64,000 bases of DNA, taken from assembly GCA_015062655.1 (NCBI GenBank), contig SUUG01000018.1, forward strand, positions 186,001 to 250,000, in the 5' to 3' direction. The notes under the pieces were generated by a model. It did no database searches and was not told where the DNA came from. It was given only the letters and a program-made list of their open reading frames with translations. The DNA comes from Coriobacteriaceae bacterium. GTDB taxonomy: Bacteria > Actinomycetota > Coriobacteriia > Coriobacteriales > Coriobacteriaceae. Positions 36,369 through 60,278 of the stretch are shown in pieces (the stretch's first letter is position 1; each line of letters opens with the position of its first letter). The position numbers and the translations under genes were made by a program.

Positions 36369-36378
36369 GCGCAACCCC

Positions 36379-38288: not shown

Positions 38289-38330
38289 TCAGCGCTCGGC
38301 GTCAGGGCTCGGCATCAGCGCTCGGCGTCC
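38283..38330. repeat. 12-bp tandem repeat, four units
   Basis: The word GCTCGGCGTCAG recurs four times with small changes, continuing the right arm of the adjacent palindromic repeat into the 3' end of mazG. The mazG stop codon at 38315 lies inside it, so the last residues (DAER) of MazG are encoded by repeat sequence. Confidence 0.75.
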
Positions 38331-39889: not shown

Positions 39890-42800
39890 TTAGCGGTTGG
39901 CGCGGCGGCGGATCGTCACCGCAGCGCAGATCGAGGCGGCGGAGGCCACGGCGGCCACGCCAATAAGGATGAGGGAGGCGTCTCCGGTCTTGGGGAGCGC
40001 GGAGCGGACGGGCTTGCGCGGGCCGCGCGTCTTGGGCGCGGTGGACTTGGTCGTCTCATCCGAGGTCGGGGCCTTGGTGCTGTCAGAGTCCGCGGGGTCG
40101 CGGTCGTCCTGATCGCCCGTGGTGCCGGGGCCCTTCGGGTCCTCGGAGCCGGTGCCGGGGTTCTCGGGGTCGACGCTCCTCACGCGCACCGTGAAGTCGT
40201 GGACGTTCGTCGTGCCCGTGTATGCTCCTGTGCCGCGTGCGACCACGGTGGCCGGGCCCTCGTCGGTGTTGCCGTCGTACTCGAGGGTGTAATCCTCCCC
40301 GTAGGTGAGGACCGTGCCGGAAGAGGCGTCAGCCGCGCGGAAGGCCGCGCCCTCGCCCGCGAGCGTGACCGTGAGCTGGCCGGGCTCGAACGTCGCCGGG
40401 TGCTCGGCGTTGACGGCATCCACCTCGAGCACCGCGGGGCCGGTGAGCGTCGCCGCCGAGAGATTGATCGGCTCCGGCTCGGGCTCGGGCGCAGGAGCCA
40501 CCGTGACCGTGACCTTATCGCTCACCGTCTGGCCGGACGCCGTGAACGTCACAGTGCCCCCGTGCGTGCCTTCCCCGGGCAGCTCCGCCAAGACGAGCTC
40601 CCAGATGCCGTTCTGAGCGCGATTGTTGTTGTTATCCGGATTCGGAGCCCGATAGGGCCTGTCCTGCTTGACCGTGAGGTCAGACGTGGTCCCGTCATCC
40701 CAGGTGATCGTTGCGGACACCGCGTCAGCCGCGGTCATCGGCAGGTAGCCGTAGGCAACCGTCAGGCCGCCCTCGTCGCCGACCTGCGCCGTGGCGTCGG
40801 TGGCGGCGAGCACCGCCTTGTTCACCAGGCCGTCCTCCGCGTAGAAGTCGGCCCCGTGCAGGGTGAGCGCGGGCACCGTGGCGGCGAGGCGACGCTTGAG
40901 ATCGGCGAGCTTGCCGGTGCGGCGCGCCTGCGGGGTCCACGCGACCTCGGCGAGCGCCATGGCGCGCGGGTAGGACGGCATGAAGAAGTCCTGGATACCG
41001 CGGACGTGCTCGTTCCACATCGCGCCCTCGACGCCGCGCATCGCGGCCTCCTCGACGCCCATCATCGCCACGGGGTCGTAATCGTAGAAGCCGGAGAGGT
41101 TCGCGTTCCCCGCCCAGGTGGCGCCCCAGATCGACGCGCCGGCCTTTTGCGGGAAGTACGCCTGCGCGGCCTTGGAGAAGATCACCTTCGCGCCCTTGGT
41201 GCGGGTGGCCTCGACCGTCTGCCTCATATCCGAGGTCCAGTACTGGATGGTGTCGTTCTCCTTGATCTCACCGCCGCCCGTGGGCCACTCGTTCCATCCG
41301 ATGGGAGTGAGCCCCTTGCCGCGCAGCATCTCGCCCGCCTTGGTGAGGAAGCGGCCGGCAGCGCCGGGGTGCTTTTTGTCCATCACATGCGTCTCGTCGC
41401 CTCCCATGTGGAAGTAGCCGGAGCCCGTGATCTGGGACACCTGATCCACCACATGGTTGAGGAAGGTCCAGGTCGCGTCGCTCGTGGGGTCGAGGTAGGA
41501 GTTGCCCACGTCGCCCGTGCTCTGCGTCGGCGCCGTGATGTAGCGCGTCGGGTCGGTGATCGCCTCGCCCGTGGCCGGGTCGACCGTCCCGTTATGGGAG
41601 GAGCCCGCGGTGTTCAGCTCGGGGATCGCGTGCAGGATGGCCTGGGAGTGCCCGGGCATGTCGATCTCGGGGACGACCTTGATATGGTGCTCCGCCGCAT
41701 GGGCGACGATCGCACGGAGGTCATCTTGGGTGTAGTACCCGGGGATGCCGGGGTTGGCCTGCTGCTTGGTGGTTCCCATCGCCGTCTTGCTCGAAATCGC
41801 GGTGAGGCGCGTGTAGTCGATGGTGTCGCCCTCGGCGCGGCCCTCGTTGGTGATCTCGATGCGCCAGCCCTGGTCGTCGGCCAGGTGCAGGTGCAGGTAG
41901 GAGAGCTTGTACATCGCCATGACGTCGATGGCCTGCTTGACCTCGTCCACCGTGAAGAACGAGCGGGCGGGGTCGAGCATGATGCCGCGGTACTCGAAGC
42001 GCGGCGCGTCCTCGATGGCGAGCGCCGGCACCGTCCACGGGCCGTTCGTGACGAAGGAGGCCACCGAGAAGGGGCCGAAGAGCTGGTAGATGGTCTGGGC
42101 ACCATTGAACAGGCCATGCGCGGAGTGGGCTGTGAGGCTCATGCCCGCGTTCGTGACCTCGATCGCGTACGCCTCGCTCGCAGCGTCGGGGGCGACGATG
42201 GAGAGCGTGATGTCAGCCACGTCGTCAGAGGAGGACGCGACGACCGGGAGCTTGTAGCCGGTGGAGGCGCGCAGCGTCGCGGCGAGCTTCTCGGCCTCGG
42301 CGGCCGCCTCTCCGGAAGCGACGATCTCGGATGCGGGATCGAGCGTGAAGCCCTCGCCCTCGCCCGGCGTGTAGGTCGCCGGAGCCGGGACGACCGCCGG
42401 CAGGTCGGACGCCGTCATCGGGGGCTTGGCCTCCCAGGCGCCGTGGATCTCGACCTCCCAGATACCCACCGACCACTGGCTGTTGCGCGCCGTCACGTGC
42501 ACGCGCACATGGCGGGCCACCGCGCCGGAGAGGTCCGTCTTGACCGTCTCGGAGGGGCTGGTCTGCTTCACCGCGGGCGCGGCGGGGGTCCACACGACGC
42601 CGTCGTCCGACGTCTCGATCGTGTAGCTCGTGCCGTACTGCTTGCCCCAAGTGACCGTCACGTCGTCGATCTTGGCGCGGGCGCCCAGGTCGACGGCGAG
42701 CCAGACCTCGTCGGCCTTGTCAGCCGACCAACGGCTCGCATCCGGGGCGCGGAAGTTGGCCCCCGCCTCGCGGAAGGCGCGGTCGCCGCCGACGTTGCCG

Positions 42801-42997
42801 TCGATCGCGAGCTCGGGACCCCATTGGCCGGGGAGCTCCTGCCCCGAGGCCGTGGCCGTGGCGGCCTCGGTCACCAGGTTCTGACTGCCGCCTTCTGCCC
42901 GGGCGCTTGGGATGAACCCGGGTAGGGAGAGGATCAGGACGCCCAGCAGGGCGGCGACCACCCCCAGGATTGATCGGCGGATCGAGAGATGCCTCAT
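39890..42997 (-). CDS. Cell-wall-anchored GH20 beta-N-acetylhexosaminidase
   Basis: 1035 residues, secreted and wall-bound. Signal peptide 1-34 (cleavage near SARA-EGG). An F5/8 type C-like carbohydrate module (about 50-185) and a GH20b domain (about 195-320) precede the GH20 catalytic barrel (about 325-700) with the Asp-Glu pair in GYFHMGGDETH near 533-534. After Ig-like domains and an acidic Asp/Thr-rich spacer comes the sortase signal LPKTG at 1001-1005, a membrane helix and RRRANR. It releases terminal GlcNAc/GalNAc from mucin-type or peptidoglycan glycans. ATG 42997 follows GGAAGGAG. No sortase is in the window. Promoter palindromes suggest LacI-type control. Confidence 0.92.
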   Translation of the reverse strand: MRHLSIRRSILGVVAALLGVLILSLPGFIPSARAEGGSQNLVTEAATATASGQELPGQWGPELAIDGNVGGDRAFREAGANFRAPDASRWSADKADEVWLAVDLGARAKIDDVTVTWGKQYGTSYTIETSDDGVVWTPAAPAVKQTSPSETVKTDLSGAVARHVRVHVTARNSQWSVGIWEVEIHGAWEAKPPMTASDLPAVVPAPATYTPGEGEGFTLDPASEIVASGEAAAEAEKLAATLRASTGYKLPVVASSSDDVADITLSIVAPDAASEAYAIEVTNAGMSLTAHSAHGLFNGAQTIYQLFGPFSVASFVTNGPWTVPALAIEDAPRFEYRGIMLDPARSFFTVDEVKQAIDVMAMYKLSYLHLHLADDQGWRIEITNEGRAEGDTIDYTRLTAISSKTAMGTTKQQANPGIPGYYTQDDLRAIVAHAAEHHIKVVPEIDMPGHSQAILHAIPELNTAGSSHNGTVDPATGEAITDPTRYITAPTQSTGDVGNSYLDPTSDATWTFLNHVVDQVSQITGSGYFHMGGDETHVMDKKHPGAAGRFLTKAGEMLRGKGLTPIGWNEWPTGGGEIKENDTIQYWTSDMRQTVEATRTKGAKVIFSKAAQAYFPQKAGASIWGATWAGNANLSGFYDYDPVAMMGVEEAAMRGVEGAMWNEHVRGIQDFFMPSYPRAMALAEVAWTPQARRTGKLADLKRRLAATVPALTLHGADFYAEDGLVNKAVLAATDATAQVGDEGGLTVAYGYLPMTAADAVSATITWDDGTTSDLTVKQDRPYRAPNPDNNNNRAQNGIWELVLAELPGEGTHGGTVTFTASGQTVSDKVTVTVAPAPEPEPEPINLSAATLTGPAVLEVDAVNAEHPATFEPGQLTVTLAGEGAAFRAADASSGTVLTYGEDYTLEYDGNTDEGPATVVARGTGAYTGTTNVHDFTVRVRSVDPENPGTGSEDPKGPGTTGDQDDRDPADSDSTKAPTSDETTKSTAPKTRGPRKPVRSALPKTGDASLILIGVAAVASAASICAAVTIRRRANR

Positions 42998-43050
42998 GCG
43001 CGGCTCCTTCCAGACGTGCGGGCAAACAGCGGACCAGTGGTTGTCGTCAT

Positions 43051-43130
43051 GGACAATGAACACGTATTCCGAAAAATTCTCCTCATACGTGTTGCTATTG
43101 TCCGGTGGCTTCACTTAATCGGTTAAGTAA
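43051..43130. promoter_or_regulatory. Palindromes upstream of GH20 gene, including a LacI-like operator
   Basis: An ACTTAATCGGTTAAGT palindrome with CG centre (43113-43128) matches the operator pair beside the lacI gene at 54 kb in 15 of 20 aligned bases. Between it and the gene, 43051-43067 and 43085-43103 form a long imperfect inverted repeat (GGACAAT...ATTGTCC, AACACGTAT/ATACGTGTT). The first is a candidate operator, the second a possible leader hairpin. Confidence 0.5.
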
Positions 43131-46941: not shown

Positions 46942-48216
46942 CTACCGGGCTCCCTTTCCGAGAGCGCGAAACATCAGCGCCTTGTACGCCTCGACCCCGG
47001 GCTGGTCGAAGGGGTTGACCCCGAGCAGCCGCCCCGAGACCGTGCAGGCGAAGGCGAACCAATAGAACAACATGCCGAGATGGCGTTCGTCAAGCCGGTC
47101 AATCTCGAGGGTCAGGCACGGGAGCACCTCGGCGTGGGCCGCGCGGGTCGCGCGGAAGCTCGCCTTGTTGATGTCCCAGAAGTCCACCCCGTCGAGGTAG
47201 CCGAAGCCGTCCGCCACATCCGTGCCACCGAGCACGAGCGAGTCGCCCGGCCCGGGCCCCGCCACATCGAGGAAGGTCTCGAACAGCAGGTGCGTGCCGT
47301 CCTGCACGAACTGGCCGAGGCTGTGGAGCTCCTCGCTATACTCAGCGGCCGAGGGGAAGAGCCCCCGCCCGTCCTTGCCCTCGCTCTCGGCGAAGAGCTG
47401 CTCGAACCACTTCGAGAACCAGCGGAACCGCGGCTCGAAGAAGCCCAGCAGCTCCATGCGGTACCCGCGCTCCCACAGGATGTTGCGGCAGGCGGCGTAG
47501 CGGTAGGCCTCGTTCTCGAGCGGGCCGTCCCCGCGGCAGGCGCGCTCCGCCTCGCGGGCGCCGTCGACGAGCGCGCGGATGTCCACCCCGCCCACGGCGA
47601 GCGGGAGCAGGTGCACCTCGGTCAGGGCCGTGAAGCGCCCTCCCACGTCCGTGGCGAACGGCACGAAGGTGTAGCCCTCATCGCGGCAGAGGTCCTCGAG
47701 CGGGCTGCCGATCGTGCCGGTGCAGACGATCCGGCGCGCGGCCTCCTCGGCCCCGTAGCGCTCGACCAGGTACTGCCGCAGCAGGCGAAACGACGAGCCC
47801 GGCTCGAGAGTCTCGAAGTTCTTCGCCACGCAGTCGATCACCACGTCGTGCCCCTCGAGGGACGCGATCACGCGGTTGAGCTCCCAGGCCGACAGCGTGT
47901 TGCCGGCGAAGACCACCCGCGCGCCGACCTCGGGCGCGAGCGCCGCCAGGGCCGCGCGCGTGGCGTTGTTGGAGCCACCGACGCCGATGAGCACGAAGGT
48001 GTCGGCGCAGGCGCGGATGCGCTCGGCAAGGGCGCAGGTCCGCTCGAGCACCTCATCGCCCGCCCAAGCGCTAACCGAGAGCCAGCCGAGCGAGTCAGCG
48101 AAGCCCTCCTCCCCCTCCTGGCAGCGGGCGAGCACGTCGGCGTGCGCGCGCCGGTAGTCATCGAGCTCGGCGGGGCTCACGAACCCTTCCGCGAACTCGG
48201 TGTTGAACCGAAGCAT
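46942..48216 (-). CDS. Glucose-6-phosphate isomerase family protein (divergent)
   Basis: 424 residues, a little shorter than Bacillus-type PGI (about 450). Family landmarks are present: TDVGGRFTALTEVHLLP, FPSAAEYSEELHSLGQFVQDG and the C-terminal NPFDQPGVEAYK with the catalytic lysine. The normally invariant GIGGSYLGAR loop reads GVGGSNNATRA (78-88), a change at the sugar-phosphate site. It probably interconverts an aldose-6-phosphate and a ketose-6-phosphate, but perhaps not glucose-6P. It starts 9 bases after the LarA-like gene. Confidence 0.85.
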   Translation of the reverse strand: MLRFNTEFAEGFVSPAELDDYRRAHADVLARCQEGEEGFADSLGWLSVSAWAGDEVLERTCALAERIRACADTFVLIGVGGSNNATRAALAALAPEVGARVVFAGNTLSAWELNRVIASLEGHDVVIDCVAKNFETLEPGSSFRLLRQYLVERYGAEEAARRIVCTGTIGSPLEDLCRDEGYTFVPFATDVGGRFTALTEVHLLPLAVGGVDIRALVDGAREAERACRGDGPLENEAYRYAACRNILWERGYRMELLGFFEPRFRWFSKWFEQLFAESEGKDGRGLFPSAAEYSEELHSLGQFVQDGTHLLFETFLDVAGPGPGDSLVLGGTDVADGFGYLDGVDFWDINKASFRATRAAHAEVLPCLTLEIDRLDERHLGMLFYWFAFACTVSGRLLGVNPFDQPGVEAYKALMFRALGKGAR

Positions 48217-48225: not shown

Positions 48226-49722
48226 CTAGCAGCCGCAGGGATGCGCCGGCGCGTCATCGCGGAAATGGCTATTCTGCGCCGGGTCCTTCATGCACAGGTG
48301 CGGCACGGCGCTCACGTAGGCGCCCGGGAGCGCGAGGATGTTGGGGTCGCCGTCGGTGTACTTGCGCGTGGCGTCGGCGATGGCCTCCTCGAAGGTCGAC
48401 CGGGTCTTGAGGCCCATCGTGCGCGCGATGCCCGGCTGGCGCGCCCCGACGATGTAGGTCGCCGAGAGGTACTTCTCCGCGAGGTTGCCGCAGCTCATCA
48501 TCGAGAAGCCGTGGAAGGGGTGGAAGGCCCCGGCGAAGCGGTACTTGCGGATGTACTCCTCGTTCGTGGCGAAGTACTCGCCGTACTTGATCATGTCGTT
48601 CAAGGTGTTCATCTGGTCGGACTGCCACAGCTCCCACTGCTCGCGCAGGTAGGGCCAGCGCTCGTCGTGGAACCACCCGTCGCAGGCGCTCGCGATCACG
48701 AAGACCGCGTGATCGGAGAGGATGCGCTTGTGGCGGATGACCATAGCCGACACCGCCTGCATCATCATGATGGGGTTCGTGCCCATGCCGTCGCCGTAGT
48801 GGAAGTTCGTGGGCATGCCCATGACCACGATGTCGTACTTCTTCTCGGCCCAGTGCACGTAGGTGCGCGCGTCGGCCGTCTTCCACGCCACGGGCTGCAT
48901 CTCATGCGCCCAGCCGGAGTTGATCTCAATCTGGCGGCTCCAGGTGTCGAGCACCGCGTCCACGCAGAAGAACTTCTTCCCCATCTTCTCTTCCATGTAC
49001 ATGCCCTGGGAGTCGAACTTCGAGCGCATGAGGCTCGAGGTCGAGACCGGCACGAAGTCGGGTCGGCTCATGACGCGCGGCACGTGGTGGGCGCCGATGG
49101 AGCGCCAGTGCGTGATGCCCGTGGCGCAGTGCTTGTAGCCGCCCGAGTAGCCGCCGTAGGGGTTGCCCTGCGTGTGCCCGATGAGGATCGCGATGTCGGC
49201 CTCGTAGACGCGCTTGTTCATGATGACGTGGTCGCCCTGCTCGGTGAAGCCGAGGTCGACGAGGTCGTCGTAGTTCTCGGAGTCGTGGGCGTCGATCTGG
49301 CCGCTCTCGTAGAACTCGTCGAAGAGCTCCGCGCCCAGGATCTTCTTGGCCTCCTCGGTGCTCGTGCGCGGGTGCAGGCCGTTGGAGAACAGCAGGAGCA
49401 CGTCGCTTTTGCGCACGCCGTGGGCCATGAGCTCGTCCAAGCAGGCGCGGATCGCCACCCGGCGGTGCGCCGTGGGCTGGGTGCCGCCCTTCACGATGTC
49501 GGGGATGATGAGCACCGCCGTGGCGCCCGGCCGGGCAAAGGAGGCCAGCGGCTCCATGCCGATGGGGTTCCTGATGCTCGCGAGGGTGGCCTCGTAGAGC
49601 GCGTCCCAGGTCTGCTCCAGGCACGGGGGGTCCGCCACCGTCTCACCCGTGACGAACACGTCGGTGCCCTCGGGCAGCTCGGCCGCCATCTTGCCGACCC
49701 CGTACTCGAATTCCAGCTTCAT
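48226..49722 (-). CDS. LarA-family nickel-pincer-dependent racemase/epimerase (DUF2088), substrate unknown
   Basis: 498 residues, longer than LarA (about 424). Residues tied to the NPN cofactor align with L. plantarum LarA: Lys197 in GYSGGYKH (LarA Lys184, covalent link), His213 16 residues later (LarA His200, nickel ligand) and His117 in SNGLHPR (LarA His108). The lactate-binding residues do not: the DHTRP segment reads PDIVKGGTQP (75-83) and Lys298 of QAVK becomes serine (MQAVSAM, Ser325). The C-terminal 70-90 residues are extra. So the cofactor site looks intact and the substrate is probably not lactate. The operon of sugar-phosphate enzymes suggests a sugar or sugar acid epimerase. larB, larC and larE in this window could supply the cofactor. 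Confidence 0.82.
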   Translation of the reverse strand: MKLEFEYGVGKMAAELPEGTDVFVTGETVADPPCLEQTWDALYEATLASIRNPIGMEPLASFARPGATAVLIIPDIVKGGTQPTAHRRVAIRACLDELMAHGVRKSDVLLLFSNGLHPRTSTEEAKKILGAELFDEFYESGQIDAHDSENYDDLVDLGFTEQGDHVIMNKRVYEADIAILIGHTQGNPYGGYSGGYKHCATGITHWRSIGAHHVPRVMSRPDFVPVSTSSLMRSKFDSQGMYMEEKMGKKFFCVDAVLDTWSRQIEINSGWAHEMQPVAWKTADARTYVHWAEKKYDIVVMGMPTNFHYGDGMGTNPIMMMQAVSAMVIRHKRILSDHAVFVIASACDGWFHDERWPYLREQWELWQSDQMNTLNDMIKYGEYFATNEEYIRKYRFAGAFHPFHGFSMMSCGNLAEKYLSATYIVGARQPGIARTMGLKTRSTFEEAIADATRKYTDGDPNILALPGAYVSAVPHLCMKDPAQNSHFRDDAPAHPCGC

Positions 49723-49761: not shown

Positions 49762-50604
49762 TCACGCGTTCAGATACCGATCGACGATCTCCAGGTACTC
49801 ATCAGGGTAGAACCCGATCTCCCCCGCGAACCGGGTGAGCGCGATGAGGCCGCCGTCGATCTCGGTGATCCCGGCAAGCATCTTCGCGTTGTCGGCCTTG
49901 AGGCCGCCGCCGTAGACCACGTCCGCGCCGCCTGTGCGCTCCTTCACGAAGCGGGCGATCTTTTGGATGTAGGGGGCGTCGGCCGGCGTCTTGCCCGGCC
50001 CGATGCTCCACACCGGCTCGTAGGCGATGACGACCTGCGAGGCGTCCGCGCCGTCGAGGCCCGCGTCGAGCTGATGGCCGAGGACCTCCTCCCATGCGCC
50101 CTGCTCCTCGGCGTGCTCGCCGATGCACAAAAGCACCGAGAGCCCGGCCGCCTGGGCGGCGCGCACCTCGGCGCCGAGCAGCGCGTCGACAGTCTCGCGG
50201 GCGCGATCGGGCGCGACCCCGGCCGCATCGAGGACGGCGCGGAGGTTGCCGCGCTCCTCGCAGTGGCCGATGATCGCCGCGCCGCAGCCGATCTGCGCCA
50301 TGGCCGACGCGGGGCGCAGCGACGTCATCGCGCCGAAGTTCCCGCCCGGGGCCACGTCCTCGCGGTGGACGCCCTGCGGCCCGATCGCGAGGGGAGAATC
50401 AGGCCGGCGCGCGCCGAGAGCCGACGCGAGCTGGGACTCGGGCAGGAAGGCCGCGAACGAGGCGGCGCCCGTGTAGGGCTCGATCCCCTCCTGGATCGCC
50501 GAGACCACCGCGGCGCCCCAGTCGAGCGGTGCCGCGAGGCGGTTCACGCCGCCGCGCTCGGGCACGACGTCGAACCGCTTGAGGTTGAGGTAGATGTGCT
50601 TCAT
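49762..50604 (-). CDS. Triose-phosphate isomerase family protein (divergent)
   Basis: 280 residues. Catalytic trio conserved by position: Lys9 in LNLKRF (usual NWK), His114 in IIGHCEERG (usual GHSERR) and Glu196 in AYEPVWSIGPGKT. The phosphate loop YGGGLKADNAK is present. Altered flanking residues indicate a paralogue rather than the housekeeping enzyme; TPI-family members that isomerise tetrulose phosphates are known. ATG 50604 with GGGAG upstream. It lies 23 bases after pfk and 39 before the LarA-like gene. Confidence 0.85.
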   Translation of the reverse strand: MKHIYLNLKRFDVVPERGGVNRLAAPLDWGAAVVSAIQEGIEPYTGAASFAAFLPESQLASALGARRPDSPLAIGPQGVHREDVAPGGNFGAMTSLRPASAMAQIGCGAAIIGHCEERGNLRAVLDAAGVAPDRARETVDALLGAEVRAAQAAGLSVLLCIGEHAEEQGAWEEVLGHQLDAGLDGADASQVVIAYEPVWSIGPGKTPADAPYIQKIARFVKERTGGADVVYGGGLKADNAKMLAGITEIDGGLIALTRFAGEIGFYPDEYLEIVDRYLNA

Positions 50605-50627: not shown

Positions 50628-51794
50628 CTATACAAAGCTCACGAGACGCGGCAACGGCGCGCCGAGCAGCGGCCGGCACCAGGTGCGGAAGGCCTCGGTG
50701 ACCCCGTTGCCCCGCTCGTTGATGAACTCGTCGGGGACATGGCGCTCCTCGAGCATGACCTGCTCGAGCGGCAACAGCGTCGTCCGGACGGCGTACGTGC
50801 TCTCCGTGCGCTCGAAGCCCACCATCTTGCCCGACTCCCCCGCGAGCGCCGCGCGCACGGCCGCGCGCCCGGCGAGGACGGCCTCGTCGCGGTCGACCTC
50901 GCTTTGATAGGCGATGGAGGCCCGCCCCACGAGGCCCGGCTTCTCCGCGCGGGCCTTGTAGCCGAGCTCGCGCATGATGAGGCGGGCCAGGTGCGCCGAG
51001 ACGTCACCGAAGTAGGTGGCCCGCCCCACGGTCATGACCGGCTCGACGATCGGGTCGCCGGCGGCGTTTGTGAGGCCCTCGCTCGCCACGACCACACCCG
51101 AACCGGACCGGTCGATGAGCCGCTGCACGTCCTCGAGGAACGTCCCCTCATCGAAGGCGCGCTCAGGCAGGTAGATGAGGTCGGGCCCGTAGCCGGCGTC
51201 GGCGGCGAGCGACGAGGCGGCCGCGACCCAGCCCGACGAGCGGCCCATGAGCTCCACCACGGAGATGTGTATGGGGAGCCCCCGCACGTCGCAGCAGACC
51301 TCGGAGACCGCCTGGGCGGCGAAGCGGGCCGCGCTGCCGTAACCCGGGGCGTGATCGGTCACTGCGAGGTCGTTGTCCATGGTCTTCGGGATGCCGATGA
51401 CGCCCACCTCGACGCCGGCACGCTCACAGGCCGCGAAGAGGCGGCCGCAGGTGTCCATCGTGCCGTTGCCGCCGTTCATGAGCACCCAGCGCACGCGGTT
51501 GCGCGCGAGCGCACGGGCGAGTCGGTCGTAGCCCGCCTCATCGACGGCGTCGCGGCCGGTGCCGATCGCGGAGGACGGCGTGGCGGGAAGGAGCGCGAGC
51601 TGCGCCTCGGGCACCGCACCCAGATCGATGAAGTCTCCCGCCTCGAGCCCGGCGACCCCGAACCGGGCGCCGAGGACGCGCCCCACCGACGAGGACCCCC
51701 GTGCCTCGTCGACGGCCCCGAACAGCGAGGCATTGATCACGGCCGTCGGGCCGCCCCCGTGGATGATGAGGAGGCTGTCGGCGCCGGCGCCCAT
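50628..51794 (-). CDS. 6-phosphofructokinase family protein
   Basis: 388 residues, group II/III-like PFK. IIHGGGPTAVINAS at the N-terminus, GGNGTMDT (108-115) in place of GGDGS and PKTMDND (136-142) in place of PGTIDND. Glycine at the ATP/PPi-discriminating first position favours ATP, whereas lysine at the second is usual in PPi-using enzymes, so the phosphoryl donor is uncertain. SVVELMGRSSGWVA follows. Start ATG 51794 overlaps the fba stop by one base. It would form a ketose bisphosphate for the aldolase encoded just upstream. Confidence 0.87.
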   Translation of the reverse strand: MGAGADSLLIIHGGGPTAVINASLFGAVDEARGSSSVGRVLGARFGVAGLEAGDFIDLGAVPEAQLALLPATPSSAIGTGRDAVDEAGYDRLARALARNRVRWVLMNGGNGTMDTCGRLFAACERAGVEVGVIGIPKTMDNDLAVTDHAPGYGSAARFAAQAVSEVCCDVRGLPIHISVVELMGRSSGWVAAASSLAADAGYGPDLIYLPERAFDEGTFLEDVQRLIDRSGSGVVVASEGLTNAAGDPIVEPVMTVGRATYFGDVSAHLARLIMRELGYKARAEKPGLVGRASIAYQSEVDRDEAVLAGRAAVRAALAGESGKMVGFERTESTYAVRTTLLPLEQVMLEERHVPDEFINERGNGVTEAFRTWCRPLLGAPLPRLVSFV

Positions 51795-52951
51795 CACAGC
51801 CCCGCCGCCTCGTAGCGCTCGGCCATCTCGGCGAGGCCCGCCCGCTCCACAAGCGGGGCGCGGCCCACGCTGCCGAAGGTCACGACGAGCGAGCCCACGG
51901 CCTCCTTGACGCCGGCCTCGATCGCGGCCACAACGGCGGCGACGTCCTCGTCGGGCACCTCCCCGCGCATCACGGTCGGGTAGATCGGGGGCAAAAAGGC
52001 GCGCGGGTCGACCTGCGCGGGCTGCTGCTCGATGAGCTCGCCGACGGCGCCCACCGACGCGGAGCGCATGAGCTCGGGGCGGGAGCGGAAGAGCTCGCGG
52101 AGGTTGCGCGTGACCGCGAGGCGGATGTCCGTGTCGACGTTGATCTTGCTGATGCCGGCCGGTATCGCGGCCGTGAGCTCGGCGACCGGGATGCCGTGGG
52201 CGCCCGCGACCGAGCCGCCGAGCCGGTTGATCTCCTCCACCAGGTGGGCCGGGACGGTCGAGGAGCCGTGGCTCACGAGCGCGCACTCGATCCCGGCGTG
52301 GAGCAGGCACTCGCGGATCGCCGTGGGGATCTCCCGGCGCAGCTTGACGTCCTTCCCCTTCGCCGGGCCGTGCATGGTGCCGTAGCTGATCGCGAGCGCG
52401 TCGACCTTGGTGTCCCGGATGAACTCGACGGCGGCCAGCGGATCGGTGTAGGTGCTCGTGAGCGAGGAGACGTCGTCCTCCACGCCGGCGAGCACGCCGA
52501 GCTCGCCCTCGACCGAGACGCCGCGCGCATGCGCGTAGCGCACCACCTCGCGCGTCAGCTCCTTGTTCTCCTCGAAGGGAAGGGCCGAGCCGTCGATCAT
52601 CACCGAGGTGTAGCCGCCGTCGATGGCGGCAATGACGCTCTTGAGGTCGTGGCCGTGGTCGAGGTGGAGCACCACGGGCACCGGCGAGGCCTCAGCGAAG
52701 CGCCTGACGGCGGCGCCGATGTTCGCCGCACCGCGGATCTTGTCCTCGATCGTGCCGTTCGCGAAGTCGGCGCGGCCGCCCATGAAGGCATTGGCGAGGT
52801 CGGCCCCCTGCAAGATCGCGGGGCTGCGGAACATCTCGTGCACCTCGATGGCGGCCTTGGCCTGGCAGACCGCGTTCACGTTGAACGCGCCCTGGGCGTA
52901 GCCGTGGGCGCGGGCGGCGTCGAGAACCGGCTTCAAGGGGATGAGTGGCAT
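51794..52951 (-). CDS. Class II fructose/tagatose-bisphosphate aldolase family protein
   Basis: 385 residues. Zinc-site motif HLDHGHD (96-102), second zinc region EGELGVLAGVEDD, and SHGSSTVPAHLVEEINRLGG with KINVDTDIRLA for phosphate binding, as in the longer class IIB enzymes. It cleaves a ketose 1,6-bisphosphate to DHAP and an aldehyde phosphate. The C-terminal extension of roughly 60 residues after FLPPIYPTVM is unusual. ATG 52951 with AAGGAG upstream; 52 bases after lacI. Confidence 0.88.
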   Translation of the reverse strand: MPLIPLKPVLDAARAHGYAQGAFNVNAVCQAKAAIEVHEMFRSPAILQGADLANAFMGGRADFANGTIEDKIRGAANIGAAVRRFAEASPVPVVLHLDHGHDLKSVIAAIDGGYTSVMIDGSALPFEENKELTREVVRYAHARGVSVEGELGVLAGVEDDVSSLTSTYTDPLAAVEFIRDTKVDALAISYGTMHGPAKGKDVKLRREIPTAIRECLLHAGIECALVSHGSSTVPAHLVEEINRLGGSVAGAHGIPVAELTAAIPAGISKINVDTDIRLAVTRNLRELFRSRPELMRSASVGAVGELIEQQPAQVDPRAFLPPIYPTVMRGEVPDEDVAAVVAAIEAGVKEAVGSLVVTFGSVGRAPLVERAGLAEMAERYEAAGL

Positions 52952-53003: not shown

Positions 53004-54041
53004 CTAAGCGCGGGAGACCTCGGTGAGGCGCATGATGCGCGAGCTCGGGGGGTTGCCTTCCATGAGCGAGAGGAGCTCCCGCGCGCAGACGGTCCCGACC
53101 TCGTAGTTGGGCAGGCGCATGTAGAAATCAGGATGGAAATGGCTCTCGCCGTTGTTCGCAAGCTCGGCGGTGACCAGGCGCTTGGAGGTGATGCGCTGCA
53201 GCGGATCCGTCCAGCCCGACCAGCTCGCCACCACGGCGTCGCCGTCCTCCAAGGGCTCGCAGGCCGCCCGCATCGCCTCGAGGAAGCGCTCGGTGAGCGC
53301 GTCTCCCTCCTCGGTGGTGCCCACGGAGTAGCGGAGGTCCCAGGTCTCGAGGTTCTGCAGGGTCACCGGCATGTCGGCCACGATCAGCTCGACGCCGGGG
53401 GCGGCGCCGAGCGCCCCGGTGACCCCGGCCAGGCGCTGGCGCTCCTGGGCGGTGCCGGTCTGCGGCTGCAGGTAGAGCACGCGCCGCGGGCCGCGCTCGA
53501 GCACCTCGGCCACAACATGCTGGGCGCTCCCGCGGTAGTCGAGGTCGACGGTGCTGTAGGTGTCCGACTCCTCGAGGCAGTCGTAGGAGACGAAGGGGAT
53601 CTTGCCGCGGCGGATCTGGTCGACGCTGTCCTTGCCCGGTCCGATGTTGTCGCGCCCGAGGAAGATGACGCCGTCCACGCGGCCCTCGCAGAAGGCGCCC
53701 ACGTAGTCGGTCATGCCATCCCGGCGCAGCCGGTTGGTGCACAGCAGCAGCGACATGTCCTGCTGCTCCAGGACGCTTTGGATGCCCCGGATGGTCTGGC
53801 TGAAGCGCGGGACCGCGAGGTTCTTCCGCGCGACCACGCCGATGGTGCCCGAGCGCTTGCTTCGAAGCGAGCGGGCGGCGCTCGAGGGGACGTAGTTCAG
53901 GTCGCGGGCGATGGTGAGGATGCGCTCGCGCGTGGCGGGGGCGATCTTCTGCCCCGGCGTGCGGTTGAACACGTAGGAGACGGTCGCCGTGGTCACATGC
54001 GCGGCAGCGGCGATGTCTTTGAGGGTTGCGCGCTTGCCCAT
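53004..54041 (-). CDS. LacI-family transcriptional regulator
   Basis: 345 residues: N-terminal LacI helix-turn-helix and hinge (ATLKDIAAAAHVTTATVSYVFN, about 5-26, and YVPSSAARSL), then a periplasmic-binding-protein-like effector domain. ATG 54041 follows AAGGGAAGG. First gene of the fba-pfk-tpi-larA-like-pgi-IIB run and divergent from the ABC importer. Matching palindromes with a CG centre lie 88 bp before its own start and 41 bp before the importer, so it probably controls both. Ligand unknown, presumably a sugar or sugar phosphate of this pathway. Confidence 0.9.
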   Translation of the reverse strand: MGKRATLKDIAAAAHVTTATVSYVFNRTPGQKIAPATRERILTIARDLNYVPSSAARSLRSKRSGTIGVVARKNLAVPRFSQTIRGIQSVLEQQDMSLLLCTNRLRRDGMTDYVGAFCEGRVDGVIFLGRDNIGPGKDSVDQIRRGKIPFVSYDCLEESDTYSTVDLDYRGSAQHVVAEVLERGPRRVLYLQPQTGTAQERQRLAGVTGALGAAPGVELIVADMPVTLQNLETWDLRYSVGTTEEGDALTERFLEAMRAACEPLEDGDAVVASWSGWTDPLQRITSKRLVTAELANNGESHFHPDFYMRLPNYEVGTVCARELLSLMEGNPPSSRIMRLTEVSRA

Positions 54042-54128
54042 GGACCTTCCCTTCCGTGCTCTCATGCGAGCCCGCGGCGCGGGCGTGTCTGACGTGCTCC
54101 GACGCGATACGTCGATGCGGCCATCATA

Positions 54129-54148
54129 TAACTTATACGTTTAAGTTA
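54129..54148. promoter_or_regulatory. LacI-type operator O1 (lacI side)
   Basis: TAACTTATACGTTTAAGTTA, a 20-bp palindrome with one mismatched pair and a CG centre, typical of LacI-family sites, 88 bp upstream of lacI. Confidence 0.75.
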
Positions 54149-54413: not shown

Positions 54414-54433
54414 TAACTTACACGTTTAAGTTA
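54414..54433. promoter_or_regulatory. LacI-type operator O2 (ABC importer side)
   Basis: TAACTTACACGTTTAAGTTA differs from O1 at one base only. It lies 41 bp before the permease start and 265 bp from O1, a spacing that would allow repression by looping. Confidence 0.75.
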
Positions 54434-54474: not shown

Positions 54475-55257
54475 ATGCCGCAAGAACAGAAGGTCCCTCT
54501 GTGGTCGAGGATCCCCAATGGCGTGTGGGTGCTCGTGTCAGCGGCCTGCGCCGTCGCGCTCTGGCTCGTGGCATCCCACCAGCTGCCCGCCGTGTTCGCC
54601 CCGCCCCAGGAGGTGTGGGCGGCGCTCATCTCGAAGGCCGAGAGCGGCGTCTTGCTCCAGCACGTCTGGGCCTCGCTCTCCCGCGTGCTCGTGGGCTTCG
54701 GCCTGGCCTTTGTGACCTCGATCCCCGTCGCTTTCCTCATGGCGTGGTACGAGCCCTTCCGCCACGTGGTCGAGCCCTGGATCCAGTTCATCCGCAACAT
54801 CCCGCCGCTCGCCTACGTCTTCCTGCTCATCGCCTGGCTCGGCATCGGCCAGCAGAGCAAGATCGCCGTCATCTTCATCGCGGCTTTCCTCGTGATGGTC
54901 GTGACCATCTACCAGGGCGTCAAGGGCGTCGACGTGACGCTCATCAAGGCCGCCCGCGTGCTCGGCGCCCGCCAGCGCGACATCTTCTTCAAGGTCACGA
55001 TCCCCGCGTCCACCCCGTTCATCCTGGTGGCGGCCCGCCTCGGCCTGTCCACCTCCCTCACCACGCTCATGGCCTCCGAGATCGTCGGCGGCGACCGCGG
55101 CATCGGCATGATGATCCAGCAGGCGAGCGGTTACTACGAGATGGATGTGGTGCTGCTCGGCATCATCATGCTCGGCATCATCGGCATCTGCTTCGAGAAG
55201 ATCGTCCGCTACCTTGAGAGGAGGTTCACCGGATGGCAGGAGAGCGTGCAGCAGTAA
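54475..55257 (+). CDS. ABC importer permease, SsuC/TauC family
   Basis: 260 residues, six predicted membrane helices, with the EAA-like loop IKAARVLGARQRDIFFKVTIPASTP (about 160-185). The family carries sulfonates, taurine, nitrate, bicarbonate or thiamine-type precursors. GAGAAAGGACC precedes ATG 54475. The end overlaps the ATPase gene by 25 bases. Control by the adjacent LacI regulator is suggested by operator O2, which is unusual for this transporter class. Confidence 0.9.
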   Translation: MPQEQKVPLWSRIPNGVWVLVSAACAVALWLVASHQLPAVFAPPQEVWAALISKAESGVLLQHVWASLSRVLVGFGLAFVTSIPVAFLMAWYEPFRHVVEPWIQFIRNIPPLAYVFLLIAWLGIGQQSKIAVIFIAAFLVMVVTIYQGVKGVDVTLIKAARVLGARQRDIFFKVTIPASTPFILVAARLGLSTSLTTLMASEIVGGDRGIGMMIQQASGYYEMDVVLLGIIMLGIIGICFEKIVRYLERRFTGWQESVQQ

Positions 55258-56024
55258 AGGTCCACGTCGACCATGTGGTGAAGAAGTTCGAGACCCGTAA
55301 AGGTGAGATGACCGCGCTCAACGGCGTCGACCTCGACATCCATGAGAACGAGTTCATCACCGTGGTGGGCCCGTCCGGATGCGGCAAGTCCACGCTGCTG
55401 AACATCATCGGCGGCTTGGAGAAGCCCACCGAGGGGCGCGTGCTCGTGGACGGCCAGCCCGTCACGGGGCCCGGACCCGACCGCGGCATCGTGTTCCAGC
55501 AATACGCCCTGTTCCCTTGGCTCACCGTGGAGAAGAACGTCGAGTTCGGCCTCAAGCTCCAGGGCAAGTCCAAGGAGGAGGCGTCTGAGATCGCCCACAG
55601 GTACCTCAAGATGGTCGAGCTCGAGGACTTCGCCAAGCACTACCCCAAGGAGCTCTCGGGCGGCATGAAGCAGCGCGTCGCGATCGCGCGCGCCTACGCC
55701 ACGAACCCCAAGGTCCTGCTCATGGACGAGCCCTTCGGCGCCCTCGACGCGCAGACGCGCACCCAGCTTCAGCAGGAGCTGCTCACCACCTGGGAGAAGG
55801 AGCAGAAGACTTGCTTCTTCATCACCCACGACGTCGAGGAGGCCATCATCTTGGGACAGCGCGTCGTCATCATGTGCGCCCGCCCCGGCCGCGTGAAGGA
55901 CATCATCGACATCGACATCCCCTACCCCCGCGACCAGTCCACCAAGATGAGCCCGCGGTTCCTCGAGCTCAAAAACGAGATCTGGAGCCAGGTCTACCAG
56001 GAGTACCTGTCCGTGCGGAAATAA
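55233..56024 (+). CDS. ABC importer ATP-binding protein, SsuB/TauB family
   Basis: 263 residues. Walker A GPSGCGKST (about 46-54), Q-loop IVFQQYALFPWLTV, signature LSGGMKQRVAIARA, Walker B VLLMDEPFGALD and switch HD in FFITHDVEEA. The YALFPWLTV segment is characteristic of the nitrate/sulfonate/taurine group. It energises the permease and lipoprotein encoded on both sides. Confidence 0.93.
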   Translation: MAGERAAVKVHVDHVVKKFETRKGEMTALNGVDLDIHENEFITVVGPSGCGKSTLLNIIGGLEKPTEGRVLVDGQPVTGPGPDRGIVFQQYALFPWLTVEKNVEFGLKLQGKSKEEASEIAHRYLKMVELEDFAKHYPKELSGGMKQRVAIARAYATNPKVLLMDEPFGALDAQTRTQLQQELLTTWEKEQKTCFFITHDVEEAIILGQRVVIMCARPGRVKDIIDIDIPYPRDQSTKMSPRFLELKNEIWSQVYQEYLSVRK

Positions 56025-56093
56025 CCGCCGCGCGTTTCCCTGTTGGCAATCGCGTCCGATCCGCGGATGCAATGTAGCTTTAAGGAGAGCACC

Positions 56094-57173
56094 ATGTCCC
56101 GTATCAACGACCTCCCCCTCAGCCGTCGCGGATTCCTTGCTGGAATCGCCGGCCTCGGCCTCACCGCGGCCGGCCTGGCCGGCTGCACGAACGGCGGCGG
56201 CGCCTCCAAGGGCTCGGCCGCCGGCTCCGCGCCCGCCAAGAGCGCGTCCAAGTTCGAGCCCGTCACGCTCCGCGTGGCCTTCATGCCCAACCTCGGCTCT
56301 GCGAGCTCGCTGTTCACCGGCATCGAGCAGGGCTTCTTCGAGAAGATGGGGATCACGGTCGAGACCCAGCAGTTCCAGGGCGGCCCGGCTGAGATCACCG
56401 CCATGCAGTCCGGCGATATCGACATCGCCCAGATCGGCCACGGCGCGCACGCGCTGTGCATCGGCGGGGACGCCAAGGTCTTCGCCTTCGACCAGCTCTC
56501 GAAGGCCGACGCCGTCGTGGTGAACAAATCCAAGGTCGCCGATGCGAAGGCGCTCAAGGGCAAGAAGGTGGGCGTCGCCTCCGGCACCTCCTCCGAGATC
56601 ATCCTGAACCTGCTCCTGCGCGACGCCGGCCTCACCGAGTCCGACATCGAGAAGGTCGAGATGGACGTCTCCGGCATGACGACGGCCCTCATCGCCGGCC
56701 AGATCGACGCCGCCGCCACCTGGTCGCCCAACACCGTCACCATCGAGGAGAAGCTCGGCGACGACTACCTCGTCCTCGCCGACAACTCCGACTACGCCGA
56801 CGAGGTCGCCTTCCCCGGCAGCTTCGTGTGCCTGCCCGACTACGCCGACAAGAACGCCGAGGTCCTCGAGCGCTTCGCGGCCGCCATCAACATGGCCCAG
56901 GCCTACCGCGCCGAGCACATCGACGACGTGGCGAAGCTCCTCGCCAAGAAGCTCGACCTGCCCGAGGAGACGCTGCTGCAGTCCACAGGCGAGGGCGACT
57001 GGGAGGGTGCCGCCAAGGCCATCGGCGACATGGACACGATCAAGGGCTACTACGAGGCCCAGCAGAAGGTCTTCCTCGACAGCGGCAAGGTGGAGGCCGC
57101 CGTGCCGGTCGACGACTACGTGCTGTTCGACGTCATGGAGAAGGGCGCCACGCTCTACGACGAGAACAAGTAG
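56094..57173 (+). CDS. ABC importer substrate-binding lipoprotein, SsuA/TauA (NMT1-like) family
   Basis: 359 residues. TAT signal SRRGFLAG (Arg11-Arg12) combined with a lipobox LAGC, lipidated Cys31, then a Gly/Ser/Ala linker. The binding protein (about 52-340) has LRVAFMPNLGSAS, GIEQGFFEKMGI, LKGKKVGVASGTSSE and DAAATWSPN, all typical of the SsuA/TauA/NMT1 fold. The ligand cannot be read from sequence. ATG 56094 follows TAAGGAGA. A sulfonated, carboxylated or heterocyclic compound is expected for the family; a sugar is not. Confidence 0.9.
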   Translation: MSRINDLPLSRRGFLAGIAGLGLTAAGLAGCTNGGGASKGSAAGSAPAKSASKFEPVTLRVAFMPNLGSASSLFTGIEQGFFEKMGITVETQQFQGGPAEITAMQSGDIDIAQIGHGAHALCIGGDAKVFAFDQLSKADAVVVNKSKVADAKALKGKKVGVASGTSSEIILNLLLRDAGLTESDIEKVEMDVSGMTTALIAGQIDAAATWSPNTVTIEEKLGDDYLVLADNSDYADEVAFPGSFVCLPDYADKNAEVLERFAAAINMAQAYRAEHIDDVAKLLAKKLDLPEETLLQSTGEGDWEGAAKAIGDMDTIKGYYEAQQKVFLDSGKVEAAVPVDDYVLFDVMEKGATLYDENK

Positions 57174-57413
57174 CGAGCTGACCCCGCGCGCCGCCGCCTG
57201 CTGCCCCGGGCGGCGGCGCCCTCATGCGGGCCGCCCTCCCCGCCTTCATGCTGACCGTTCGTCTTTCGGCATTTTTCAGCCCGAGAATGGTGAAAGACGG
57301 CCTGTCAGCGCGAGATATTGGTGCCGACAGGCCGTCTCTTAGCGCCGGACCCCCTATCCGTGCTAAGAGACGGCCTGCCGGCACCGTAAGTCGCCAAGAG
57401 AATGGGAGACGCC
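57174..57413. promoter_or_regulatory. Leader region of nagB with mutually exclusive hairpins
   Basis: AGACGGCCTGTC (57295-57306) pairs with GACAGGCCGTCT (57326-57337). That second arm is also part of a 24-base arm (57320-57343) that pairs with 57362-57385 with one mismatch. A further GTCTTTC/GAAAGAC pair lies at 57261-57297. The two large hairpins cannot coexist, so this could be an attenuator or a repeat insertion between the importer and nagB. Confidence 0.5.
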
Positions 57414-58229
57414 ATGGAGTACTACCACATCGATGCCGAGCACCTCGGCGAGGACGCGCTCGTTCCGCTCTCCGTCCTGGGGAGCTCGGGCGAGATCTTC
57501 TACGAGCTCGCCCTCGAGATGATTCGCCAGATCCGCGCGGGCAACGAGGCGGGCCGCGACACCGTCATCATCTGCCCGGTGGGACCCGTGGGCCACTACC
57601 CCATCTTCGTGCGCCTTGTGAACGAGGAGCGCCTGTCGCTCAAGCGCTGCTGGTTCATCAACATGGACGAGTACCTCACCGACGAGGACGCGTGGATCGA
57701 CGCGGACGACGGCCTCTCCTTCCGCGGCTTCATGCAGCGCGAGGTGTACGGCAAGATCGACCCCGCGCTCCTCATGCCCGAGGAGCAGCGGATCTTCCCC
57801 GACCCCGCCGCGCCCGAGCGCGTGGGCGAGGTGATCGAGCGGCTGGGCGGCGTCGACCTCGTGATCGGCGGCATCGGGATCACCGGGCACCTCGCCTTCA
57901 ACGAGCCCGACGCGGCGCTCACGCCCGATCAGTTCGCCGACCTCCCCTGTCGCGTGCTCGACATCCACCCCGAGACCCTCGCCACCAACGGGGCCGCCGA
58001 CCTCGGCGGGGCCCTCGAGGACATGCCCCGCCGCTGCGTGACCGTCGGCATGCGCGAGATCCTCGGCGCGCGCCGGATCCGCCTCGGGGTCTTCCGCGAC
58101 TGGCACCGCGCCGCGGTGCGCCGCGCCGCGTACGGCGAGGTCACCTCGGCCTTCCCCGCGACCCTGCTCCAGCGCCACGCCGACGCCCTCATCTACGTGA
58201 ACGACGTCGCCGCGCGGCGCGCCTACTAG
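57414..58229 (+). CDS. NagB-family glucosamine-6-phosphate deaminase/isomerase-like protein (divergent)
   Basis: 271 residues. Asp85 of NMDEY and His159/Glu164 in GHLAFNEP are kept, but the catalytic Asp of the usual GxDGHIAFNEP is threonine (GITGHLAFNEP, Thr157), and the phosphate loop PTGGTP reads PVGPVGHYP. Fold and adjacency to nagA suggest a GlcN-6P deaminase, yet these changes could mean another sugar phosphate or loss of deaminase activity. ATG 57414 with GGGAG upstream is preferred; ATG 57402 is possible. nagA follows after 12 bases. Confidence 0.78.
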   Translation: MEYYHIDAEHLGEDALVPLSVLGSSGEIFYELALEMIRQIRAGNEAGRDTVIICPVGPVGHYPIFVRLVNEERLSLKRCWFINMDEYLTDEDAWIDADDGLSFRGFMQREVYGKIDPALLMPEEQRIFPDPAAPERVGEVIERLGGVDLVIGGIGITGHLAFNEPDAALTPDQFADLPCRVLDIHPETLATNGAADLGGALEDMPRRCVTVGMREILGARRIRLGVFRDWHRAAVRRAAYGEVTSAFPATLLQRHADALIYVNDVAARRAY

Positions 58230-58241: not shown

Positions 58242-59408
58242 ATGCAGAACCAGGCGTCGCTGTATCTGAAGGGCGGCTCGGTCGCGACACCCGCGGGGAC
58301 GGTATCCTGCGACGTCGTCATCGAGAACGGGAGCATCACGGGCCTGCCGCGGGCCTACGCGAACGTGCGGGGGCTTCCCGAGGTGGACGCCGCGGGGATG
58401 ACCGTCTTGCCGGGGTTCATCGACGTCCACACCCACGGGGCGGCGGGCGTCGACGTGAACGCCGCGGACGCCGAGGGACTGCGCCGCATCGGGCGTTTCT
58501 TCGCGAGCCAGGGCGTGACCGGCTGGCTGTGCTCGATCCTCACCGACACACCCGAGCAGACGCGCTGGTGCCTGCGGCAGGCGCGCGAGGTCATCGAGGG
58601 CGGACCCTACGACGGTGCGCCGCTGCTCGGCATCCACCTCGAGGGGCCGTGCCTGGCCTGCGAGTACAAGGGCGCCATGCCCGAGCACCTGCTCATGCAC
58701 GAGGCCGACTTCGAGCTGTTTCGCAGCTACCAGGAGGAGTCGGGCGGACACGTGCGCTACGTGACGCTCGCACCGGAGGTTCCCGGTGCGGAAGGGATGG
58801 TGCCCCAGCTCAACGCCATCGGCATCACGGCGGCGATCGGGCACAGCGGCGCGGGCTACGACTGCGCGCGGGCAAGCCTGGGAGCCGGGGCACGCGCGGC
58901 GACGCACCTCGGCAACGCGATGCGCCTCTTCCACCAGCACGACCCGGCGATCTTCGGCGCGGCGCTCGAGGGCGATGCGTTCGTCGAGGCCATCTGCGAC
59001 GGGCGACACCTGCATCCCGCGAGCGTGCGGCTCTACCTGAAGTGCAAGGGCTGGGACCACGTGGTGGCCGTCACGGACTCGATCATGGCGGCGGGGCTCC
59101 CCGACGGTTCGTACAAGCTGGGCGTGAACGACGTGGTGGTCGAGGATGGCGACGCGAAGCTCGCCGACACCGGCGTGCGCGCCGGCTCGACGCTCACGAT
59201 GGCGCAGGCGGTGCGGAACATCATGCGCTTCGCCGACGTGGGCGTGGACACGGCCGCACGGCTCGCCTCCGCGAACCCGGCAGCGCTGATCGGGCTGCCG
59301 CTCAAGGGGCGCATCGAGGTTGGCTGCGACGGCGACCTCGTGCTCATGGACGCCGGGCAGAACGTGGTGCGGACGATCGTCGGCGGCCGGACGGTGTACG
59401 AGGGCTAG
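58242..59408 (+). CDS. nagA: N-acetylglucosamine-6-phosphate deacetylase
   Basis: 388 residues, typical. Amidohydrolase motifs: metal site GFIDVHTHGAAGVDVN, LEGPCLACEYKGAMPEHL (glutamate ligand), GHSGAGYD, ATHLGNAMRLFHQ and the catalytic aspartate in VTDSIMAAG. Converts GlcNAc-6P from MurQ or PTS uptake to GlcN-6P and acetate. The usual KGAH reads KGAM and HLFNAM reads HLGNAM, small deviations that parallel the divergent NagB. Probably co-transcribed with it. Confidence 0.87.
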   Translation: MQNQASLYLKGGSVATPAGTVSCDVVIENGSITGLPRAYANVRGLPEVDAAGMTVLPGFIDVHTHGAAGVDVNAADAEGLRRIGRFFASQGVTGWLCSILTDTPEQTRWCLRQAREVIEGGPYDGAPLLGIHLEGPCLACEYKGAMPEHLLMHEADFELFRSYQEESGGHVRYVTLAPEVPGAEGMVPQLNAIGITAAIGHSGAGYDCARASLGAGARAATHLGNAMRLFHQHDPAIFGAALEGDAFVEAICDGRHLHPASVRLYLKCKGWDHVVAVTDSIMAAGLPDGSYKLGVNDVVVEDGDAKLADTGVRAGSTLTMAQAVRNIMRFADVGVDTAARLASANPAALIGLPLKGRIEVGCDGDLVLMDAGQNVVRTIVGGRTVYEG

Positions 59409-59426
59409 TTGCCCCGGTGCCCCCTG

Positions 59427-59489
59427 ATGCCGAGCGTGCATGATTACCGCTTTTCCGCGCTGGAAAGGCCGGGTTGCGCACGCTCGGCG
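59427..59489. repeat. Dispersed palindromic repeat, copy 9 (divergent)
   Basis: Arms ATGCCGAGCGTGCATGA and TTGCGCACGCTCGGC with compensating changes (GTTCG to GTGCA, CGAAC to GCGCAC), just after nagA. Two further hairpins follow: GCAGCAGCGCG/CGCGCTGCTGC (about 59493-59529) and GAAATGGCCG/CGGCCATTTC (about 59538-59576). Confidence 0.65.
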
Positions 59490-60264: not shown

Positions 60265-60278
60265 TATACTGGTGCGCA
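60265..60278 (+). promoter_or_regulatory. -10 box implying a leaderless mRNA
   Basis: TATACT at 60265-60270 ends 7 bases before the ATG of the Gx transporter. A transcript starting at the usual distance would begin at or next to the start codon, and no ribosome site is present. Confidence 0.45.

Follow-up and report, generated by a model that had tools for sequence, protein, structure and literature searches.

A candidate route for import and breakdown of N-acetylglucosamine-6-O-sulfate in two divergent operons of a Coriobacteriaceae genome

The sulfonate/taurine-type ABC (ATP-binding cassette) importer encoded at positions 54475-57173 of a 64,000-nucleotide stretch from a Coriobacteriaceae bacterium (assembly GCA_015062655.1, contig SUUG01000018.1, positions 186,001 to 250,000; the whole stretch is called the window below) heads one of two divergent operons that combine homologues of amino-sugar and glycolytic enzymes with a LarA-family nickel-pincer enzyme. 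The combination suggests a locus that imports N-acetylglucosamine-6-O-sulfate (GlcNAc-6-sulfate) and breaks it down with the sulfate retained as far as the triose, a reading in which we place moderate confidence. We infer the ligand, every reaction, the role of LarA, the export step and the role of the phosphoglucose isomerase (PGI)-like enzyme from sequence. The genes and sites concerned are the following, with profile scores and matches to solved structures in brackets.

54475..55257, + strand: ABC permease, TauC/SsuC type (best profile TauC, 154 bits, cut-off 342; BPD_transp_1)
55233..56024, + strand: ABC ATPase, SaoA/NtrCD/TauB type (best profiles SaoA, 270 bits, cut-off 360; ntrCD, 263 bits, cut-off 291.8; TauB, 257 bits, cut-off 357)
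56094..57173, + strand: substrate-binding lipoprotein, TauA/SsuA fold (best profile SsuA_fam TIGR01728, 142.5 bits, cut-off 163.5; NMT1, 74.8 bits, over the Pfam cut-off; predicted structure; homologues in a 20-row alignment)
57402..58229, + strand: NagB-like deaminase/isomerase, altered phosphate loop (fails the NCBIfam nagB profile, 85.8 bits, cut-off 236.9; 2bkv, 3.2e-17)
58242..59408, + strand: NagA-like deacetylase, phosphate-side Arg replaced by His (passes NCBIfam nagA, TIGR00221, 255.4 bits, cut-off 225.65; 2vhl, 7.7e-57)
54414..54433, unstranded: palindromic LacI-type operator beside the importer (exact TAACTTAnACGTTTAAGTTA)
54129..54148, unstranded: palindromic LacI-type operator beside lacI (exact TAACTTAnACGTTTAAGTTA)
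53004..54065, - strand: LacI-family regulator, ATG at 54065 or 54041 (PF00356)
51794..52951, - strand: class II fructose-bisphosphate-type aldolase (PF01116, 249 bits)
50628..51794, - strand: phosphofructokinase (PFK), pyrophosphate (PPi)-type subfamily (PRK14072, 363 bits, cut-off 273)
49762..50604, - strand: triose-phosphate isomerase (TPI)-like isomerase, phosphate-side Ser replaced by Gly (PF00121, 106 bits)
48226..49722, - strand: LarA-family nickel-pincer enzyme, His-to-Asn subfamily (9q3j, 3.3e-216; 9q2u, 8.5e-215)
46942..48216, - strand: PGI-like isomerase, altered phosphate loop (residue columns A131 and N133)

On the + strand the three importer genes, which overlap or sit close together, are followed after a 228-base gap by the NagB-like gene and, 12 bases further, by the NagA-like gene; on the - strand the order is lacI, aldolase, PFK, TPI-like, LarA, PGI-like. 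In the proposed route, a surface glycoside hydrolase of family GH20 or other mucin degraders would release GlcNAc-6-sulfate outside the cell, and the importer would take it in intact, the sulfate standing in for the 6-phosphate of the usual pathway. The NagA-like enzyme would then strip the acetate and the NagB-like enzyme remove ammonia to give fructose-6-sulfate, to which PFK would add a phosphate at C1. Aldolase cleavage would yield dihydroxyacetone phosphate, entering glycolysis, and glyceraldehyde-3-sulfate, on which the TPI-like enzyme and then LarA would act. A TauE/SafE exporter would carry the sulfur out, either as sulfate or in a small sulfated compound, and a single LacI repressor would govern both operons.

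The bond between importer and sugar genes is drawn most directly by the operators. One copy of TAACTTAnACGTTTAAGTTA lies ahead of each divergent operon, the 2.07 Mb genome holds no further copy, and none of 100 shuffles produced such a pair at up to three mismatches. Similar pairs are found in three relatives: Collinsella vaginalis (L023) has two sites of the form ACTTAAnCGTATAAGT at corresponding places, Olsenella (L024) has one site recognised by pattern and one by eye, and in genome G027 (L115) both were recognised by eye. As the pair is unique in the genome and recurs in these relatives, the importer and the LacI operon very likely answer to one regulator, with LacI predicted to bind both palindromes. 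This bears out the preliminary description of the window, which had placed the importer under the LacI regulator, and on the operators we reject a plain chance co-location of the two. A sigma-70 scan of the region returned no site against a shuffle mean of 0.6, and three terminator-like sites against 2.1. Among the relatives, Olsenella carries two tandem lacI-like genes about 50% identical to that of the window (L024, 2718-5080), and in a C. vaginalis locus (L117, 8365-11837) lacI, PFK and TPI are broken into swapped segments, either by rearrangement or by an assembly error.

The importer itself surely belongs, on its sequence, to the TauABC/SsuABC class. Profiles and gene layout agree with the sulfonate/taurine-type importer described earlier at this place: permease, ATPase and binding protein are all present, the latter with a TauA fold and, by eye, a Tat/lipoprotein-type N-terminus. 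The locus is thus like TauABC/SsuABC in its three-gene make-up and fold, but differs from known members in falling below every equivalog cut-off and in lying beside amino-sugar genes. Since all importer family scores stay under the curated cut-offs, the class is sure while the ligand cannot be derived from them, and the choice of a ligand from the best family names was rejected for the same reason. In its predicted structure (pLDDT 86.7), the binding protein comes nearest to TauA of Escherichia coli (E 5.5e-19 by Foldseek, Z 29.4 by VIA), with SsuA, CmpA and NrtA chains trailing by about 2 Z units or less, gaps so small that the fold comparison of this model is not decisive.

The nature of the substrate is better approached through the enzymes. 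The genome holds separate, better-scoring copies of TPI, PGI, NagA, NagB and PFK elsewhere, so that the second copies of PGI, TPI and PFK noticed earlier are real. Residue changes were counted per alignment column against the normal TPI, PGI, NagA and NagB copies of the genome, leaving out members shorter than 240 (TPI), 240 (NagB), 380 (PGI) and 330 residues (NagA). In the TPI cluster members, a loop Ser has become Gly (G235) and a Thr has become Pro (P204) in 59 of 59, and a further Ser has become Cys in 54 of 59. The NagB members have an altered phosphate loop, with Thr replaced by Val (V60) and Lys by Trp (W234) throughout (31/31 each), and all 20 PGI members carry Ala for Ser (A131) and Asn for Thr (N133). 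In NagA, the invariant phosphate-side Arg is replaced by His (H233) in 34 of 35 members and kept in one. At these positions the solved homologues carry the usual residues in our alignments, and the catalytic residues of all four enzymes are intact. The phosphate-side Arg is described as invariant, its loss abolished activity in a mycobacterial NagA, and such enzymes are reported to deacetylate GlcNAc-6-sulfate as well, with a 7-fold higher Km (PMC6016474). The pattern supports, at the level of sequence comparison, a group at C6 other than phosphate; we infer what replaces it. Because TPI is changed as well, the odd group should persist down to the triose.

The same gene set recurs well beyond the window. 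Relative loci were fetched by LarA and the best 80 of 209 retained; many are cut by contig ends, and gene counts are based on the 49 whose flanks reach 7.5 kb or more in each direction. The 80 loci span Coriobacteriia, Lachnospiraceae, Oscillospiraceae, Epulopiscium, spirochaetes, Paenibacillus and other groups; judged by LarA, C. vaginalis (93%) is the closest relative with a name. Within the 49, a TPI-like gene is present in 40, aldolase in 31, NagA in 28, PFK in 27, NagB in 24 and PGI in 16; the permease occurs in 21, the binding protein in 19 and the full importer in 17, the ATPase and permease counts taking in some other ABC genes. The TPI gene ends within 200 bases of larA in 57 of 62 cases. 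The preliminary description therefore went too far in calling this type of importer unexpected beside a LacI-controlled sugar pathway, yet within the genus a search of 43 genomes found the LarA cluster in just 3. Four loci (L031, L032, L034, L037) have a transaldolase, matching Pfam TAL_FSA in L032, in place of PFK and aldolase, together with importer and NagB. A TauE/SafE homologue is detected in 31 of the 80 loci by tblastn (25 by clusters of open reading frames), downstream of PGI in C. vaginalis and Olsenella, and all five representatives scanned pass the Pfam cut-off; in the genome of the window the only TauE gene sits on a different contig and shares 58% identity with the one in the Olsenella cluster. 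By eye, no phosphotransferase system (PTS) part or sugar kinase ahead of NagA was recognised among the nameable neighbours on the maps, many neighbours being unnamed, and without a recognised PTS or kinase the sugar should arrive already charged. Of the 80 loci, 11 (for example L031, 14463-16334) encode a DUF4838 protein some 620 residues long, which may serve the Firmicutes clusters as their glycosidase, and in the window heptaprenyl diphosphate synthase component I-like and ApbE-like genes lie downstream of nagA (60272-62024).

The window holds further genes of relevance to LarA and to the source of the sugar.

34884..36374, - strand: larC, nickel-pincer cofactor synthesis (TIGR00299, 187 bits, cut-off 90)
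36379..37146, - strand: larB, nickel-pincer cofactor synthesis (NF033503, 284 bits, cut-off 175)
37277..38173, + strand: larE, nickel-pincer cofactor synthesis (TIGR00268, 242 bits, cut-off 150)
39890..43114, - strand: cell-surface GH20 with F5/8 domain, LPKTG end and BbhII-type YFPQ(X10)W motif (best solved relatives and motif)

The LarA of the window aligns over its whole length to 9q3j and 9q2u, and the signature H117, N187, K197 and H213 of the His-to-Asn subfamily is present in 81 of 81 sequences. The larBCE genes, all over their cut-offs, lie 10-13 kb from larA, and in G027 larB and larC follow directly 3' of larA, which ties the supply of the cofactor to the locus. The structures belong to LarA_Bw and LarA_Sp, which do not racemise lactate and whose authors leave the substrate open while suggesting carbohydrate metabolism from glycolysis-like neighbours (PMC12611868). 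The LarA of the window shares with them the catalytic His, Asn, Lys and His as well as such neighbours; the available parts of that paper mention possible sugar ABC transporters, and not a sulfonate-type importer, TauE, a transaldolase swap or sulfate (PMC12611868). The simplest place for LarA would be on the sulfated triose that the aldolase and TPI-like steps deliver. We give little credence to a bolder proposal, in which LarA would be a desulfating enzyme: it would lift a hydride from the alcohol at C1 of dihydroxyacetone sulfate, the product of the TPI-like enzyme, and put it back on C3 while sulfate departs, with methylglyoxal (or lactate after hydration) and sulfate as products. One base would then be enough, because sulfate leaves without a proton, which would account for the second His being consistently lost.

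The GH20, located between larCBE and the LarA operon, finds its best PDB matches in the hexosaminidases 7wdt (1.4e-118) and 6yxz, both of which we take to be BbhII, and carries YFPQKAGASIWGATWAG; the YFPQ(X10)W motif is kept in the GH20 copies of G025 and G027. In BbhII, the Q and W of YFPQ(X10)WAC recognise the 6-sulfate (PMC11659886). The window enzyme shares the YFPQ(X10)W motif and the F5/8 (CBM32-like) domain but has WAG where BbhII has WAC, and 6-sulfo-GlcNAc cleavage is predicted for it. A second GH20 is present elsewhere in the genome. A strict partnership of GH20 and LarA was considered and rejected, GH20 being found in only two of three LarA-positive genomes against one of 22 LarA-negative ones hand-chosen out of 40 (Fisher p 0.029). 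Pfam hits place sulfatases within or close to the clusters of L053, L067 and L073, and inspection by eye or by motif adds L047 and L054. The motif scan of the window gave no plausible intracellular sulfatase; its sole match, in another frame of larC, was discarded. As a separate observation, a palindromic dispersed element, about 66-74 bases long and with GCCGAGCGTTCG at its ends (33992-34603, 38225-38290, 44058-44637, 46376-46449, 59426-59491), and a 300-base stretch present at both 34120 and 44153 (91% identical) flank the cofactor genes, the GH20 and the LarA operon.

The closest parallel among known pathways is sulfoglycolysis, in which a sulfo group replaces the 6-phosphate and, as in its Embden-Meyerhof-Parnas (sulfo-EMP) form, an isomerase, a C1 kinase and an aldolase act on the sugar. 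The locus is proposed to work likewise, with PFK and the aldolase in the window and transaldolase in four relative loci as homologues. The sulfo-TAL scheme uses a transaldolase instead and the sulfo-TK scheme a transketolase, and a TauE-type exporter is described for some of these pathways (PMC11489063). The locus differs in its entry through NagA and NagB homologues, its anion-type ABC importer, its dedicated TPI homologue and its nickel-pincer enzyme. None of YihQ, YihS, YihV, YihT and YihU was called among the proteins scanned from the two operons, in keeping with the earlier judgement that sulfoquinovose itself is disfavoured; we rejected it as the ligand on this ground. The locus would work in the manner of sulfoglycolysis but stands outside the sulfoquinovose pathways. 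A predicted substrate in common, GlcNAc-6-sulfate, relates it to the ats2 cluster of Bifidobacterium breve, which is reported to use this sugar through an intracellular sulfatase (PMC9599254, PMC7326374, PMC9239261), whereas the window lacks a plausible sulfatase motif. In the open-access literature we found no published sulfate-retaining breakdown of GlcNAc-6-sulfate; an old report, which our search did not return, is said to describe the conversion of glucose-6-sulfate to glycerate-3-sulfate by a Pseudomonas.

Taken as a whole, the earlier proposal of an anionic sugar degraded by an Embden-Meyerhof-like route of paralogous enzymes is supported as to the anionic sugar, on the strength of the co-regulation, the neighbourhood conserved across phyla and the loss of phosphate contacts in four enzymes, and less so as to a sulfonate: the NagA and NagB homologues, LarA with larBCE and the BbhII motif of the GH20 favour an O-sulfated N-acetylhexosamine, GlcNAc-6-sulfate. 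Several points weigh against this reading. The importer scores give no ligand, and sulfonates are the best-known substrates of the TauE and TauA families. The positions changed in NagB, PGI and TPI are presumed, by alignment, to be phosphate contacts. A PGI-like gene occurs in only 22 of the 80 loci, and G027 showed none following its larA. The GH20 stands outside both operons; C. vaginalis (G065) has the LarA cluster and lacks the GH20, G025 has the GH20 and lacks LarA, and no GH20 homologue was found in the 80 other LarA loci. Some loci depart from the hexose scheme altogether: L085, with a close LarA, has only importer genes and TauE and no hexose enzymes, and L055 (9020-11491), L057 (9035-16852) and L095 (9031-12929) combine LarA with a gene of the 3-hydroxyisobutyrate dehydrogenase family, again without hexose enzymes and in L057 and L095 beside a TauE exporter, an arrangement that is possibly a stand-alone C3 module. 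In L058 (2578-4379), L064 (5295-7961) and L068 (4868-9131), LarA is accompanied by split transketolase and class II aldolase-like genes, resembling a transketolase variant of the route. A sulfonate (C3-SO3) would suit these close LarA genes without hexose enzymes better, and if LarA performs one reaction everywhere, a C3 sulfonate becomes an alternative common substrate.

This last point leads to a route identical in its steps but with a true sulfonate at C6, either a 6-deoxy-6-sulfo hexosamine or a sulfoquinovose-like sugar, so that the triose met by the TPI-like enzyme and LarA would be sulfolactaldehyde. The TauA/SsuA-type importer and TauE/SafE exporter would suit it, the transaldolase and split-transketolase variants resemble sulfo-TAL and sulfo-TK, and the L057 dehydrogenase matches 3-sulfolactaldehyde reductase (6sm7, 3.9e-35). 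We nevertheless think it rather unlikely: that dehydrogenase is slightly closer to tartronate semialdehyde reductase (2e-36), the GH20 motif and the sulfatases in or near other loci point to O-sulfate, and the NagA and NagB homologues would need an N-acetyl sulfo-hexosamine, of which we know no gut source. The charge at C6 could also be of another kind, such as a phosphodiester or phosphonate substituent to which the enzymes are tuned. The data show only a loss of phosphate-contact residues, and TauA binds 2-aminoethylphosphonate as well (title of 6ssy), but TauE/SafE, the sulfatases near some clusters and the sulfate motif of the GH20 make this quite unlikely.

The two remaining explanations dissociate the importer or the residue changes from any unusual sugar. 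That the importer is a mere neighbour with an unrelated ligand (a sulfonate, a nitrate-like ion or a vitamin precursor) finds some footing in a family that covers many ligands, in scores that reach no equivalog cut-off and in thiamin-precursor and nitrate binders among the structural neighbours. It is made improbable by the shared, genome-unique operators, by the whole importer recurring beside LarA in several families and by its continuation into nagB-nagA on one strand. An ordinary GlcNAc pathway on 6-phosphates, with the residue changes as drift, would account for enzymes that are all homologous to the usual set and for a NagA that passes its cut-off, but is very unlikely given changes fixed across phyla in NagB, PGI and TPI, normal copies kept elsewhere in the genome, a nagB score well below its cut-off and the lack of a recognised PTS or kinase.

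If GlcNAc-6-sulfate is the substrate, the locus would represent a glycolysis acting on a sulfated, not phosphorylated, amino sugar of host mucus, in Coriobacteriia and gut Firmicutes, in contrast with the sulfatase route of B. breve. According to a review, Bifidobacterium bifidum frees GlcNAc-6-sulfate but does not assimilate it; the bacteria described here would then be able to use the sugar that it releases. Additionally, an orphan organonickel enzyme class with solved structures would gain its first substrate setting, and the open question of this LarA subfamily would be reduced to a few assays of purified enzymes. The gene set of this gut-type Collinsella looks made for the uptake of a still-sulfated mucus sugar and its cleavage by a shadow glycolysis.

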